Below are positions 7,428 to 64,000 of a stretch of DNA of 64,000 nt, in pieces. Origin of the DNA: Allocoleopsis franciscana PCC 7113. Lineage in GTDB: Bacteria; Cyanobacteriota; Cyanobacteriia; Cyanobacteriales; Coleofasciculaceae. The stretch covers positions 4,366,001-4,430,000 of the forward strand of contig NC_019738.1 in assembly GCF_000317515.1 (NCBI RefSeq). The letters are read 5' to 3'. How positions within the stretch are numbered: the stretch's first letter is position 1; the number at the start of each line of letters is the position of its first letter. A model generated the notes under the pieces. That model had not been told where the DNA came from. It did no database searches and saw only the letters and a list, made by a program, of their open reading frames with translations. The position numbers and the translations under genes were made by a program.

Positions 7428-8591
7428 ATGAAAGCCATGATTCTAGCGGCTGGTAAGGGGACACGGGTTCGCCCCATCACCTACACCATCCCCAAACCCC
7501 TGATTCCCATCCTGCAAAAACCAGTGATGGAATTTTTACTAGAACTGCTACGACGGCATGGCTGTGACCAAGTTGTCGTTAACGTCAGTCATCTAGCTAA
7601 CGAAATTGAAAGTTATTTCCGTGATGGACAGCGCTTCGGTGTCCAGATTGCTTATTCATTTGAAGGTCGAATTGTAGATGGGCAACTGGTGGGAGAAGCC
7701 CTCGGTTCGGCTGGCGGAATGCGGCGTATCCATGACTTTTATCCCTTTTTTGATGATACGTTTGTGGTTCTGTGTGGCGATGCCCTGATTGACCTGGACT
7801 TAACGGCAGCGGTGAAGATGCACAAAGAAAAAGGTGCAATTGCTACCATCGTGACCAAAACTGTGCCCCTAGAGCAGGTTCCTAGCTACGGTGTCGTTGT
7901 CACGGACGAAACCGGTCGGGTTAAAGCTTTTCAGGAAAAGCCCTCCGTGGAGGAAGCGCTCAGTACCAATATCAACACCGGTATTTATATTTTTGAGCCA
8001 GAAGTTTTAGATTATATACCCTCTGGTCAAGAATATGACATCGGTGGTGAGTTATTTCCGAAATTAGTGGAAATGGGCGCTCCGTTTTATGCGGTGCCTA
8101 TGGATTTTGAGTGGGTGGATATCGGCAAAGTTCCCGACTATTGGCACGCCATTCGCAGTGTCCTCCGGGGCGATATCAAGAATGTGCAGATTCCAGGTAA
8201 AGAAGTGTTTCCAGGCATCTACGCCGGATTGAATGTGGCGGTTAATTGGGACAAGGTGGATATCCAAGGCCCGGTTTATATTGGTGGCATGACTCATATC
8301 GAAGATGGGGCGAAGATAATTGGCCCCACGATGATTGGCCCCAATTGCTGGATTTGTAGCGGCGCAACCGTTGATAACAGCGTGATTTTTGAATACTCCC
8401 GTCTAGGAGCTGGAGTGCGCTTGGTTGATAAGCTGGTGTTTGGTCGTTACTGTGTGGACAAGACCGGTGCCACCATTGACGTTCAGGCCGCTGCCTTGGA
8501 TTGGTTGATTACCGACACTCGTCGGACTCTGCCCTCCCAGGAACCCGCCGAACGGCAGGCGATCGCAGAACTTCTGGGAACGGATGGGTAG
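7428..8591 (+). CDS. sugar-phosphate nucleotidyltransferase (mannose-1-P guanylyltransferase-like)
   Basis: This 387-residue cytoplasmic enzyme activates a sugar-1-phosphate with an NTP. The N-terminal Rossmann-like domain (residues 1-235) opens with MKAMILAAGKGTRVRPITYT, the nucleotide-binding G-X-G-T-R-x-R-P loop. It also has CGDALIDLDL (metal-binding aspartates) and FQEKP (sugar phosphate). A C-terminal left-handed beta-helix follows from about residue 250 (hexapeptide-like VYIGGMTHIEDGAKIIGP). This architecture is typical of cyanobacterial GDP-mannose or glucose-1-P enzymes feeding exopolysaccharide and glycan synthesis; the exact NTP and sugar are not determined. A GAGGAAG ribosome-binding site lies about 10 nt before the ATG. 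Confidence 0.85.
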   Translation: MKAMILAAGKGTRVRPITYTIPKPLIPILQKPVMEFLLELLRRHGCDQVVVNVSHLANEIESYFRDGQRFGVQIAYSFEGRIVDGQLVGEALGSAGGMRRIHDFYPFFDDTFVVLCGDALIDLDLTAAVKMHKEKGAIATIVTKTVPLEQVPSYGVVVTDETGRVKAFQEKPSVEEALSTNINTGIYIFEPEVLDYIPSGQEYDIGGELFPKLVEMGAPFYAVPMDFEWVDIGKVPDYWHAIRSVLRGDIKNVQIPGKEVFPGIYAGLNVAVNWDKVDIQGPVYIGGMTHIEDGAKIIGPTMIGPNCWICSGATVDNSVIFEYSRLGAGVRLVDKLVFGRYCVDKTGATIDVQAAALDWLITDTRRTLPSQEPAERQAIAELLGTDG

Positions 8592-8629
8592 TTTCCCAGT
8601 CTGAGGCTTGAGTGATAGCCATTCCGGCT

Positions 8630-8792
8630 GGGAGCATCCCAAATGTGTAAACTGCCCCTCAGACTAGAAGTCTGGGGCTATACAAACGAAGTCCGCCAGC
8701 GCGGACTAATCTTTAGCCTGCGGAGGCAGGCTTGGTTTGTGTAGCTGCGATTTCTAATCGCCTGGTATTTTTGCTTGCATTGGGATGCTCCC
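8630..8792. mobile_element. 163-bp MITE with 8-bp target-site duplication
   Basis: The element has terminal inverted repeats GGGAGCATCCC (8630-8640) and GGGATGCTCCC (8782-8792), and the first bases inside them also match (GGGAGCATCCCAA). It is flanked by a perfect direct repeat TTCCGGCT at 8622-8629 and 8793-8800, the expected footprint of transposition. It codes for nothing. The interior folds into hairpins at 8654-8678, 8691-8706, 8715-8732 and 8747-8761. The second and third are enclosed by an ACAAAC/GTTTGT stem (8682-8687/8735-8740). The ends match those of the ISKra4-type element at 61197-62968, which could supply transposase in trans (inference). Confidence 0.85.
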
Positions 8793-8818
8793 TTCCGGCT
8801 GAACACTCGCCCTTGAAC

Positions 8819-8890
8819 ACAACCATCCGGGCTGAACCCCATAAGCTGAATTGAATTGGGCTTATAATGGGTCAACGTCCGGATGGTTGT
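8819..8890. repeat. 72-bp imperfect inverted repeat
   Basis: ACAACCATCCGG (8819-8830) is mirrored exactly by CCGGATGGTTGT (8879-8890). Inside this, CCCCATAAGC pairs imperfectly with GCTTATAATGGG. The whole stretch can form one long hairpin just downstream of the MITE and 45 bp before the DUF924 gene. It could be a second small mobile element or a terminator-like structure. Confidence 0.6.
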
Positions 8891-8935: not shown

Positions 8936-9529
8936 ATGTCGCCATCCATGCATTTATTGCCAGCCCCGGAAATTTTAGACTTTTGGTTTGGGCAACCGGA
9001 TGAGGACGGTTATGGCAAATCCCGAAAAATCTGGTTTATCAAGAACCCAGAATTCGATGAAGAAGTGCGATCGCGCTTTTTGCCCACTTATCAACAAGCC
9101 GCCGCCGGTGAACTGGACTCCTGGAAGGCATCACCCCACACCTGTTTAGCACTGATTCTCCTGCTCGATCAATTCCCCCGCAACCTGTTTCGCGGACAAC
9201 CCCAAGCCTTTGCGACTGACTCACTCGCGCTGGCTTACGCCCAACATGCGGTTGCCAACGGTTTCGACCAAGAATTGCTGCCCATACAACGACAGTTTAT
9301 CTACCTACCCTTTGAACACAGTGAGAACCTAGCGCATCAGCATCAGTGTTTAGAGTTGTTCTCAACCTTGAAAGATGAGCCAGAATGTGTAAGTGGTATC
9401 GATTATGCCCACCGTCACTTCCAAGTCATTGAACGTTTTGGGCGTTTTCCTCATCGCAACCAGATTTTAGGTCGAGAAACCACTCCAGAAGAAGGAGAAT
9501 TTCTCAAACAACCGGGTTCATCCTTTTAG
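8936..9529 (+). CDS. DUF924 family protein
   Basis: This 197-residue soluble protein carries the DUF924 hallmarks: EILDFWFGQPD at the N-terminus, LALILLLDQFPRNLFRG in the middle, FIYLPFEHSENLAHQ, and a final FPHRNQILGRETTPEE. The family has a TPR-like all-helical fold; its biochemical function is unknown. ATG 8936 or ATG 8948 could be the start. The gene appears to be monocistronic, with repeat-rich spacers on both sides. Confidence 0.88.
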   Translation: MSPSMHLLPAPEILDFWFGQPDEDGYGKSRKIWFIKNPEFDEEVRSRFLPTYQQAAAGELDSWKASPHTCLALILLLDQFPRNLFRGQPQAFATDSLALAYAQHAVANGFDQELLPIQRQFIYLPFEHSENLAHQHQCLELFSTLKDEPECVSGIDYAHRHFQVIERFGRFPHRNQILGRETTPEEGEFLKQPGSSF

Positions 9530-61108: not shown

Positions 61109-61237
61109 GGAGTTATATAGCCCTTCTCGATTGAGTGTTGTACACTCTGACACTTCTGGAAAATCTCTGTCCACCTCTGCCTAACCCTCTCTTAAGGGGA
61201 GCATCCCAATTTTGCAAGAAGGCAAGAGAACGGGAAG

Positions 61238-61266
61238 TTTATTCGCGATTTTTACTCGCGAATAAA
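61238..61266. repeat. IS hairpin 1 (CGCGATTTTTACTCGCG)
   Basis: TTTATTCGCGA (61238-61248) and TCGCGAATAAA (61256-61266) form an 11-bp stem around a 7-nt loop TTTTTAC. It lies 41 bp inside the left end of the IS, upstream of the transposase frame. Confidence 0.75.
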
Positions 61267-61325
61267 GGCCGACTAGGCGGATGTTGCCCTAACTGCGACA
61301 ATTTAATTAGTTAGGGAGCCTCTTT

Positions 61326-61598
61326 ATGACAATGACACCAGAAGACAAAAAACTTTTAGCCGACCATATCAAGGCGATAGCTAAAATTCTCTATAAAAAT
61401 ACTCCACAAGAGAAAATTGAGACGTTAGAGGGTATTGAAACAGCGGTGCGCGACCAAGTGCTAGAACATGTCAGCCCCCAAATAACCTTTTTTTATCGGA
61501 GAAAAGACGGGAACAGAATCGGGACGCATCCGAACGATAAGAAGTTGTGTGGGTCGGATAAAAATCACTCAAAAACAAGCGTCACGTTTAGGAATTGA
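61326..61598 (+). CDS. ISKra4 family transposase, N-terminal frame
   Basis: The first frame encodes the N-terminal part of the transposase: MTMTPEDKKLLADHIKAIAK, YKNTPQEKIETLEGIETAVR, VSPQITFF. After the T7 run at 61488-61494 the sense frame changes: the second frame reads IGEKTGTESGRIRTIRSCVG, which fits the family better than the first frame. Joining needs a +1 shift, transcript slippage on the T-run, or the copy is inactivated by an indel. A ribosome-binding site-like AGGGAG precedes the ATG. Confidence 0.8.
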   Translation: MTMTPEDKKLLADHIKAIAKILYKNTPQEKIETLEGIETAVRDQVLEHVSPQITFFYRRKDGNRIGTHPNDKKLCGSDKNHSKTSVTFRN

Positions 61599-62403
61599 GC
61601 CGTATCGACGGTTAAGTCCTCTTCTGGAAAAATGCTGTTTATTACTTGCAGCAAATGAATCATTTCAAGATGCAGAGAATGACCTGAAAGTCTTGACCGG
61701 GGTAGAAGTAGGTCACAGCACTCATCATCGCCAAGCCCAGAAAGTAGAGCTATCGCCACCTAATATTAAACAAAAACTGACAGAAGTTTGTCTCGATGGT
61801 GGGAAAGTGCGTTTACGCTCACAGGAAAAAGGTAAACCCGCCTACTGGAAGGAGTATAAAACCGGACGACTACAAGGAATATATTACGGAGCCTTCTTTC
61901 AAGATAATTTTTCTCTAATTAATTGGGTGAACAGCCAAAACCTGGCTCGAACCATTTATTGCTTGGGTGATGGACACGATGGGGTGTGGAACCTATTTGC
62001 ACAAATAGCCGACGACCAGACCCGACAAGAAATTCTTGACTGGTATCATTTGAAAGAGAACCTCTATAAAATTCAGGCATCGAAAAAGTTTTTAGAACAA
62101 ATCGAAGCAGATTTGTGGCAAGGAGTGGTCGAAGAAGCGATTAGTAAACTCCGGAAAACTAACTATGTCGGGGCTACTAACTTTATAAGTTATCTACGTA
62201 AACATAGGCATCGCTTAGTCAATTATATGTACTTTCAAGCCGAACAATTAAGTTCGATTGCTTCGGGAGCTGTAGAGTCTGCGGTCAAACAGATAGACAA
62301 GCGGCTACAAATAGTCGGCGCTCAATGGAAGTCCCAAAATTTACCGCAAATGCTGCAACTGCGGTGCGCTTATCTGAATCGACAGCTTGCTCCAAGCGCT
62401 TAA
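61549..62403 (+). CDS. ISKra4 family transposase, main catalytic frame
   Basis: The frame is open from before 61497 and continues as VGRIKITQKQASRLGIEPYR to the stop at 62403. DDE-type features include an Asp in VCLDGGKVRLRSQEKGKPAY, the Asp pair in TIYCLGDGHDGVWNLFAQIA with WYHLKENLYKI, and the C-terminal glutamate helix IASGAVESAVKQIDKRLQIV. This is the pattern of ISKra4/ISMich2-type enzymes. The start at 61549 (GTG) is only the first start codon in frame; expression probably depends on fusion with the upstream frame. Confidence 0.85.
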   Translation: MGRIKITQKQASRLGIEPYRRLSPLLEKCCLLLAANESFQDAENDLKVLTGVEVGHSTHHRQAQKVELSPPNIKQKLTEVCLDGGKVRLRSQEKGKPAYWKEYKTGRLQGIYYGAFFQDNFSLINWVNSQNLARTIYCLGDGHDGVWNLFAQIADDQTRQEILDWYHLKENLYKIQASKKFLEQIEADLWQGVVEEAISKLRKTNYVGATNFISYLRKHRHRLVNYMYFQAEQLSSIASGAVESAVKQIDKRLQIVGAQWKSQNLPQMLQLRCAYLNRQLAPSA

Positions 62404-62443
62404 AAAACCCAAAAACAGTATGAAAAGAAGCACGCTGCTTTTT

Positions 62444-62464
62444 TTCGCGAGTTACAATCGCGAA
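62444..62464. repeat. IS hairpin 2 (inverted CGCGATTGTAACTCGCG)
   Basis: TTCGCGA (62444-62450) pairs with TCGCGAA (62458-62464) around GTTACAA. Its reverse complement matches hairpins 1 and 3. It sits between the transposase stop and the passenger gene, 19 bp before the passenger's ATG. Confidence 0.7.
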
Positions 62465-62482
62465 TAATTAGGATTTATCTTT

Positions 62483-62893
62483 ATGCCTCGAAAGACTTCC
62501 AAGGATATTGAGCGAGATAAACTCGCTCGATTTGAGCGTATTAAAAAGGCGATAGCAGCGTTAGAAAAACAACAAAGACAAATATTAAAACAGGGTGAGC
62601 TGGCTCCATCCGGGGCTTGGGTAGCGCGTTATCAAGTTCGGCAAAATAATAAGAAATATTGGTACTACAAATTACAAGTGCCGACTCCATACTTCCCATG
62701 CGCGACCTCCGAAGAGTTGAGTAAATACAAGCATCTGGGGAAAGCTGGTACTACTGACCATATAGATGCTGTCATGTCTGTTTTTAGGCGTTCTGTTATC
62801 GATGAGATACAGAAGCTCATCCGTTCCCTAGATGATTGCTTGCTGGATATTACTTCTGGAGCCGAGCAGGAGGAAGAAAAACCGCAGGATTGA
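62483..62893 (+). CDS. IS passenger protein, DUF6788-like
   Basis: The 136-residue protein has a basic N-terminal helix (MPRKTSKDIERDKLARFERI, AIAALEKQQRQILKQGE). A small beta-rich motif GAWVARYQVRQNNKKYWYYK follows, similar by eye to the RYRR/YYYL core of DUF6788 proteins found near transposons. The rest is acidic-helical (FRRSVIDEIQKLIRSLDD) with a Glu-rich tail. It has no transposase motif. It lies between two hairpins of the same type inside the IS, so it may bind them or regulate transposition (inference). Confidence 0.6.
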   Translation: MPRKTSKDIERDKLARFERIKKAIAALEKQQRQILKQGELAPSGAWVARYQVRQNNKKYWYYKLQVPTPYFPCATSEELSKYKHLGKAGTTDHIDAVMSVFRRSVIDEIQKLIRSLDDCLLDITSGAEQEEEKPQD

Positions 62894-62904
62894 ATCTCCC
62901 GAAG

Positions 62905-62929
62905 TATTCGCGATTATTACTCGCGAATA
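62905..62929. repeat. IS hairpin 3 (CGCGATTATTACTCGCG)
   Basis: TATTCGCGA (62905-62913) pairs with TCGCGAATA (62921-62929) around TTATTAC. It lies 39 bp inside the right end of the IS, mirroring hairpin 1, just after the passenger stop codon. Confidence 0.75.
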
Positions 62930-62968
62930 ATGGCTGTCCCTTTATTTTTGCACAATTGGGATGCTCCC

Positions 62969-63869
62969 GACACATGAGCCTTGCGGAAAACAACTAATTA
63001 TCGCCCTAGATAGAACTCAGTGGAAAGAGAATAATATCTTGATGGTGAGTGCGATTTATCAGAAGCGAGCCTTGCCCGTATTTTGGATTTTATTGGATAA
63101 AAAGGGAACCAGTGACCTCAGAGAGCAACAAATCGTTTTGCGACCCGTAATTAAGTTATTTAAAGCCTATAAAATAGTGATTATAGGTGACCGAGAATTT
63201 CATAGTGTCGAACTGGCGTACTGGTTACACAAGCAAAGGGTTAATTTTGTGTTTCGCCAAAAGAAAGACACAACCTTTCGGCAAAATCGACAAAAATTTA
63301 AGTCGCTGTCTCAGGTGGAGATATCTCCTGGGATGAAACAATTTTTAGCTGATATTAACTTGACTCAAAAGAAAGGATTTGGTCGGTTTAATTTAGCGAT
63401 TTATTGGAAGAGAAAATATAAAGGAAAACAACAACAAACCCCTTGGTATCTTTTAACGAATTTACCCGATTGTGAAACGGCTGTCAAAATCTATGGAAAA
63501 CGCTTCGGGATAGAAGCCATGTTTAAAGATTGTAAAACGGGAGGCTATAACCTCGAAGGTTCACAAGCTTCATCCGATAGATTAGTCCGTTTAGTCTTGT
63601 TAATTGCCCTCGCTATGTCTGCTGCGTGGTTGCAGGGTCAACACACCTCAACTGGAGGTCAATCTTTCTATATTTGTCGGCAAAAAGAAACCCACAGAAC
63701 TCGCCGAAGACATAGCAACTTTTGGATAGGTTTATATGGGTACAATTGGATAGCTGCTTTTCATGAGTGTCAGGATTGGGTGGAGGAATTAATCACTTCT
63801 GTTCGCAATAAGCTTCCTTTTTATCAACGGGGGGTGAGGGCGATAACGCTTATACAGAAAGCCTTCTAG
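62969..63869 (+). pseudogene. IS4 family transposase, N-terminus missing
   Basis: After the IS end the frame reads THEPCGKQLIIALDRTQWKE and continues for 300 residues. The DDE residues are in IALDRTQW (first Asp), IIGDREFHSVELAYWLHKQR (second Asp) and YGKRFGIEAMFKDCKTGGYN, the IS4 Y-(2)-R-(3)-E-(6)-K signature. The N-terminal part of a normal IS4 transposase is absent, and the sequence left of the ISKra4-type element is unrelated. The element is therefore truncated. The ATG at 62961 belongs to the ISKra4 terminal repeat and is not a real start. Confidence 0.88.
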
Positions 63870-63891
63870 GGCGCTTGTCGCCCCCTGAATT

Positions 63892-63921
63892 ACCCCCCTT
63901 TTTAAGGGGGGCAGGGGGGAT
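63892..63921. repeat. CCCCCTT-AAGGGGG dispersed repeat
   Basis: ACCCCCCTTTTTAAGGGGGG folds into a G+C-rich hairpin followed by GCAGGGGGGAT, the same type as at 46474-46503. The last 78 bp of the window hold no confident gene; a frame reading SKPGVLGTQAAELLQTLAG runs off the right edge. Confidence 0.55.
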
Positions 63922-64000
63922 CTAGAGGGGTTGGGGGAGAGGTCAAAACCGGGTGTACTAGGAACACAAGCCGCCGAATTACTGCAAACTTTGGCAGGTT

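Follow-up and report, generated by a model that had tools for sequence, protein, structure and literature searches.

A MITE with ISKra4-type ends around an apparently independent palindromic core in Allocoleopsis franciscana PCC 7113

A 163-bp non-coding element in the genome of Allocoleopsis franciscana PCC 7113 is a genuine MITE, most likely moved by an ISKra4-type IS, and very probably a composite one, in which ISKra4-recognised ends carry an independent, REPIN-like core and the whole is moved in trans. Specifically, two ends of ~26 bp would be recognised by an ISKra4-family transposase supplied in trans, and would bracket a core of ~110–120 bp that appears to be a separate dispersed palindrome of the REP-dimer (REPIN-like) type. 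The ISKra4 transposase would insert the entire unit at new sites and thereby generate 8-bp (sometimes 9-bp) duplications, while the core would have a history of its own, being also present in IS4-ended MITEs while ISKra4 ends hold unrelated cores elsewhere. The MITE is ordinary in itself; what is worth following is the modular relation of ends and palindromic cores.

A 163-bp MITE, its copies and its empty sites

The element lies in a window of 64,000 nucleotides, i.e., the whole stretch of DNA analyzed (C1:4366001-4430000), within the 7.97 Mb, nine-contig genome of PCC 7113 (the home genome, G000). Its features, in window positions, are:

8622..8629, no strand: left target-site duplication TTCCGGCT, read directly; a single copy, CTCTGGCT, stands at the empty site in G001, a genome of the same genus
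8630..8792, + strand: complete non-coding MITE (163 bp) in the intergenic space that separates genes for a nucleotidyl-transferase (7428-8591) and a DUF924 protein (8936-9529)
8630..8642, + strand: left terminal inverted repeat GGGAGCATCCCAA, read directly
8656..8775, + strand: palindromic core, tentatively REPIN-like, also found elsewhere without ISKra4-type ends and inside IS4-ended MITEs
8780..8792, - strand: right terminal inverted repeat, TTGGGATGCTCCC on the + strand, read directly
8793..8800, no strand: right target-site duplication TTCCGGCT, read directly

The first-pass annotation had described a 163-bp non-coding element with matching ends and a perfect 8-bp duplication, and a direct reading of 8630-8792 bears this out, with terminal repeats (13/13) and target duplication (8/8) both perfect. 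The element is overlapped only by chance ORFs and holds no transposase gene, and its conserved end reaches ~26 bp (AAATGTGTAA...), beyond the 13-bp repeat GGGAGCATCCCAA. The window has four exact matches to GGGAGCATCCCA, at both ends of the MITE and both ends of an ISKra4-family IS (61197 start, 62968 stop), and when one mismatch or fewer is allowed the end pattern has 72 matches in the whole genome vs 5 for a reversed control. The MITE matched no plasmid record.

A search for further copies with duplications, proposed in the same annotation, yielded ~ten MITEs of the window type in the home genome, nine of them with exact 8- or 9-bp duplications. Four more full copies (C1:490313, 553855, 3574072, and 5845731) are 96–100% identical, and each is flanked by a different, exact duplication (CATCCCTTC, 9 bp; ACGAAAAG; ACTTACTG; GGCAAGTA), which excludes chance and assembly artefact. 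Four divergent members, at C1:2475331 (161 bp), 506153 (111 bp), 562925 (123 bp, with a weaker right end), and near 1502434 (190 bp), likewise have exact 8- or 9-bp duplications. The proposed search for an empty site in a related strain was also successful: the window locus in G001 (C14:103518-103923) reads CCCA-CTCTGGCT-CAACACTC, with one target copy and the element absent, and its joined flanks are ~91% identical over ~400 bp. The MITE loci at 2475331 and 506153 are empty in G001 as well, making three empty sites with the window locus.

These observations bear on whether the family is still mobile or instead a frozen relic that was active in an ancestor, is now immobile, and survives as vertically inherited copies. 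Mobility is judged here from sequence, and some copies are degraded, such as a 180-bp one at C1:1106810 (L036) that has lost its duplication. However, copies up to 100% identical occupy different sites with different, intact duplications, the window site and two others are empty within the genus, and five copies of the IS are mutually identical, one of these on the small contig C8, so that we regard a frozen relic as very unlikely.

Two further observations concern the surroundings of the ends. A 12-bp perfect inverted repeat (ACAACCATCCGG / CCGGATGGTTGT, 8819-8830 and 8879-8890) lies just downstream of the MITE, and its right arm and most of its spacer are preserved in G001. Unpartnered GGGAGCATCCCAA ends, with missing partners judged within the retrieved flanks, occur on C1 of the home genome at 2225327, 3444708, 3461015, 4717071, 6063295, 6254225, and 7080726, and may be truncated ISs or MITEs.

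An ISKra4-family IS as candidate parent

The second element of interest in the window is the IS that shares these ends:

61197..62968, + strand: ISKra4-family IS with MITE-type ends, one of ten full copies; the window copy has no target duplication
61326..61598, + strand: ORF A, transposase N-terminal frame
61488..61494, + strand: T7 run (T8 in the other nine copies), presumed -1 frameshift site, here out of register
61549..62403, + strand: ORF B, predicted transposase catalytic frame (NF033572 ISKra4, 266 bits, cut-off 205)
62483..62893, + strand: passenger ORF, 136 aa, conserved in related ISs

The assignment of the MITE ends to this ISKra4-type IS, and the agreement of an 8-bp duplication with that family, had both been put forward by the first-pass annotation and both hold up: GGGAGCATCCCA is exact at either IS end, the transposase passes NF033572, and eight of ten full copies have exact duplications (seven of 8 bp, one of 9 bp). 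Duplications of 8 bp are on record for some ISKra4 subgroups. When the two frames of the consensus copy are fused by a -1 shift, the product scores 308 bits, with a match that covers the whole model (profile positions 2-422). Overall, the MITE and the IS reside in the same genome, have 13-bp ends and 8/9-bp duplications in common, and are somewhat similar subterminally, and IS ends of this type, beginning with GGG and with 8-9 bp duplications, recur with an exact 8-bp duplication at ISKra4 ISs of G001 (L223, AATGCGGC) and of another genus (G268; L217, GATTAAAA). A relative of the IS in G414 has GGGAGCATCCCAG ends and a 9-bp duplication. We infer, with good support, that the ISKra4 IS cross-mobilises the MITE, its transposase presumably acting on the MITE ends.

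A different, unseen transposase could in principle use these ends, their likeness to ISKra4 being then a matter of convergence, and four genomes with these MITEs (G005, G053, G148, and G236) give nothing above cut-off with the ISKra4 model. These genomes may, however, have lost the IS or be incomplete, and distinct ISKra4 ISs in the home genome, G001, and G268 carry the same ends with exact 8-bp duplications, so that such a transposase is hardly to be expected.

That an ISKra4 IS is the parent does not make the window copy the donor. Its flanks differ (CTCTTAAG / GACACATG), hence it has no target duplication, a point that the first-pass annotation had overlooked. The T run at 61488-61494 counts seven T where the other nine copies have eight, and this shifts ORF B from the -1 frame relative to ORF A, as in the consensus copy, to the +1 frame. 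If -1 frameshifting takes place at the T8 run, as we presume and as in other two-frame ISs, the window copy would be inactive; a homopolymer sequencing error at the T7 run is possible. Because of the T8-to-T7 deletion at the frame junction and the lack of a duplication, the window copy is an unlikely donor, and an intact copy at another site more probably served as the source. The claim that the MITE is mobilisable by the IS 52 kb away thus finds no support in that form, and the wider one that parent and derivative sit in one window survives in part: the ISKra4 family is well supported as the parent, but the window copy is an unlikely one, with identical intact copies present elsewhere.

The usual account of a MITE is an IS that has lost internal sequence. 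Applied here, this account would have the MITE shortened from the window IS and moved by that copy, and it would accommodate 13-bp ends identical to those of the IS and a duplication length of 8 bp, as in the IS family. We nevertheless consider it very improbable, given the shifted frame junction and missing duplication of the window IS and an interior that matches dispersed palindromes but no IS copy. Specifically, MITE positions 27-146 match a dispersed palindrome at many sites without ISKra4-type ends, and none of 40 scored genome matches of the MITE is an IS copy. Because the matches go to dispersed palindromes and not to IS copies, the interior is not IS-derived, and by this comparison the core is an independent dispersed palindrome rather than an IS deletion remnant. 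Decay of MITEs may account for some of the end-less core copies in the home genome; a few subterminal bases are retained in L037, L040, and L050.

The window IS abuts an IS4-family transposase ORF (62961-63869; NF033591 matched from model position 52 on), which suggests that it was inserted into, or rearranged beside, another IS. The truncated IS4 gene has no CATTGGTGTCAACTTAA end (the IS4-like end type considered below) at 63800-64000. Reciprocal recombination between the two duplication-less IS copies was considered and rejected, as their flanks fail to match crosswise. A TTCGCGA...TCGCGAA hairpin is present in three copies (61235-61265, 62445-62470, and 62900-62932), in both flanks of the IS ORFs and between transposase and passenger.

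Outside the home genome, ISOni1 and the ISKra4 relatives carried by Aphanizomenonaceae TIOX110 and Fischerella NIES-4106 plasmids resemble the IS in their NF033572 transposase, GGG-starting ends, and 8/9-bp duplications, but the window-type IS differs by its two-frame transposase with a presumed -1 frameshift and its 136-aa passenger. Full-length relatives of the IS match at ~72%, passenger ORF included. The passenger has relatives in 34 cyanobacterial plasmid records, three of these at full-length relatives of the IS; it found no family in Pfam, NCBIfam, or PADLOC and no significant match in PHROGs. A strain-specific insertion of 1917 bases in Tolypothrix PCC 7712 is annotated with an ISKra4 transposase and a hypothetical protein (PMC9679502), which fits an IS of this transposase-plus-passenger layout having moved recently. 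Our literature search, which fell short of much subscription literature, found no paper joining ISKra4 and MITEs in cyanobacteria, and nothing relevant for GGGAGCATCCC.

One core between different ends, different cores between the same ends

The core of the window MITE recurs in the home genome between ends of another kind, a CATTGGTGTCAACTTAA-ended (IS4-like) element at ~C1:7293584-7293768 (L074/L038), which it matches at 84% over 107 bp and which has the 9-bp duplication AACGGGCGT, and, in diverged form, in two further CATTGGTGTCAACTTAA-ended elements. Within ~190 kb of home-genome loci not chosen by core, core matches were confined to the window MITE and CATTGGTGTCAACTTAA-type elements. By these matches the interior is a dispersed palindrome common to IS4-ended MITEs, which the first-pass annotation had also missed. 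The CATTGGTGTCAACTTAA ends frame a 1151-bp relic in G414 (L377), whose IS4-like transposase scores 109 bits against a model cut-off of 115.

A Nostoc core (CCCTCATCCCC...GGGGGTGAGGG) displays the same sharing. It was found within GGGAGCATCCCA ends in 15 of 30 loci, plus additional halves, and within CATTGGTGTCAACTTAA ends at five loci, four of them with exact 9-bp duplications. Identity across the two end types is ~90% over ~100 bp, and the boundaries CCCTCA...TGAGGG are identical in every context. Control searches gave 0/620 with shuffled cores and, for a blind flanking-repeat search, 0 at 352 shifted positions. Overall, three core groups (single-linkage clusters of all collected elements) hold both end types with duplications, the third through weak similarity.

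Nostoc is very rich in CATTGGTGTCAACTTAA ends, with 151 matches in G236, and CATTGGTGTCAACTTAA elements of G236 and G414 (L380-L388) have 9-bp duplications that resemble GGCANTGCC, a palindromic target preference. The Nostoc core also stands in a third repeated context, between inverted AACTGTAGTT flanks (L286, L289, and L292) with no target duplication seen, possibly a third MITE type.

Conversely, the ends of the window MITE enclose other cores. A scan with one genome per species, for these ends 151–181 bp apart, gave 80 loci in other cyanobacteria among the matches listed, 53 with exact 8-bp and 7 with exact 9-bp duplications; since loci were picked by end or by core, these frequencies are not population estimates. 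The genomes among the matches listed belong to filamentous heterocystous-type cyanobacteria (Nostoc, Calothrix, Fischerella, Scytonema, Tolypothrix, and others). The interiors of the 80 loci and the home copies fall into seven multi-member groups plus singletons, and ~26 bp are conserved at each MITE end when interior groups are weighted equally. In a 388-genome sample of the class, the exact end pattern occurred in 8 genomes and the control pattern in none. Judged by ends and interiors, the same ISKra4 ends bracket several unrelated cores across Nostocales, and ISKra4 is a concrete candidate for the parent of a MITE family that is spread through many genomes of this order.

Just inside the right 13-bp repeat (window 8774-8780), TTTT alternates with TGCAA-like variants within several unrelated core groups, and the spot looks as if it were hypervariable or exchanged.

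Fold of the core and transfer between ends

Folded as DNA, the MITE reaches z = -8.3. In an alignment of 14 diverse cores of both end types, 12 of 30 pairs had changed on both sides with pairing kept, a level reached by 0/500 shuffles, and slid controls dropped to 30–50% paired. Terminator-like hairpins are present in the core, and no naked 40–70 bp element was found among 195 genomes. Rfam identities of the MITE were sub-threshold only (a CRISPR-repeat family on the hairpins and one lncRNA) and were judged to be chance.

Such stems could also belong to spacers captured repeatedly from nearby palindromes, rather than to a mobile core, and the sharing across end types would then reflect how common palindromes are in the genome and a selection for intergenic DNA that folds and is tolerated. 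The terminator-like hairpins, the compensatory changes that preserve the stems, and the lack of a naked element in 195 genomes all speak for spacers. However, exact common boundaries together with ~90% identity over ~100 bp between end types fit the transfer of a defined unit better, and we consider both the capture and this account of the sharing unlikely. On the preferred reading of an independent core, we infer that cores enter or swap between MITEs as units, perhaps through a Y1 transposase, recombination, or template switching.

More generally, cyanobacterial MITEs may be two-layered, with reusable transposase-specific ends (ISKra4, IS4, perhaps more) and REPIN-like cores that move between them as units, an extension that we put forward tentatively. 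If it is true, each layer would spread the other. A MITE middle of separate origin, common to the ends of two transposase families, would contrast with the usual internal-deletion account, and the source of MITE interiors, like the reason for their strong folding, becomes a question that a comparison of cores and ends among sequenced cyanobacteria can test directly.

Comparison with other MITEs and modular repeats

Several cyanobacterial MITEs have been described: a 187-bp one in Microcystis with an ISL3 parent and 8-bp duplications (PMC11448079), those of Anabaena sp. 90, called type II and with no parent IS found (PMC3542288), and Nezha (Zhou 2008, through its citation in PMC10969869). Like the window MITE, all are short, form stem-loops, have terminal repeats, and are mostly intergenic, a comparison made for Anabaena sp. 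90 and Nezha by description; the Microcystis MITE also shares its 8-bp duplications. The window MITE differs from all three in its ISKra4 parent and in an interior that appears to be an independent, shared palindrome. Among modular small repeats, the pneumococcal BOX element has fixed outer parts and a variable middle. Compared by description, however, BOX varies the copy number of one module, whereas window-type MITEs hold unrelated cores.

The core and a Y1 transposase gene

The core is a multicopy, inverted pair of stem-loops, and in the window copy the right arm reads TGTAGC, with the GTAG tag, and the left arm TATAGC. The home genome has only one intact Y1 transposase gene (C1:6681900-6682244), and window-core-like repeats flank it on either side at a distance of no more than ~150 bp, the upstream copy with a poor fold (z -1.7). 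With the IS200/IS605 model the Y1 protein scores 75, above the cut-off of 55, but with the REP-associated transposase (RAYT) model it reaches 30 vs a cut-off of 80. Because it falls below the RAYT cut-off and GTAG is present in one arm only, the label REPIN-like is tentative, and membership of the core among REPINs or GTAG REPs is not claimed.

GTAG-tagged REPs flanking their transposase genes (PMC3733652) and REPINs flanking transposase genes (PMC3116915) are described arrangements. The core resembles REPs/REPINs and GTAG REP dimers as an inverted stem-loop pair with GTAG (in the right arm) that is dispersed and flanks a Y1 gene; unlike them, it is ~110 bp long, has ATAG in the left arm, lies beside a Y1 gene whose product stays below the NCBIfam cut-off for a RAYT, and is carried in DDE-type MITEs. 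REP dimers inside larger palindromic repeats have a partial precedent among cyanobacteria in Anabaena variabilis, where a brief remark, without transposase assignment, notes GTAG-15 dimers nested in long palindromes (PMC3733652). The core described here differs from GTAG-15 in standing between ends of two types, for which matching ISs and target duplications are present.
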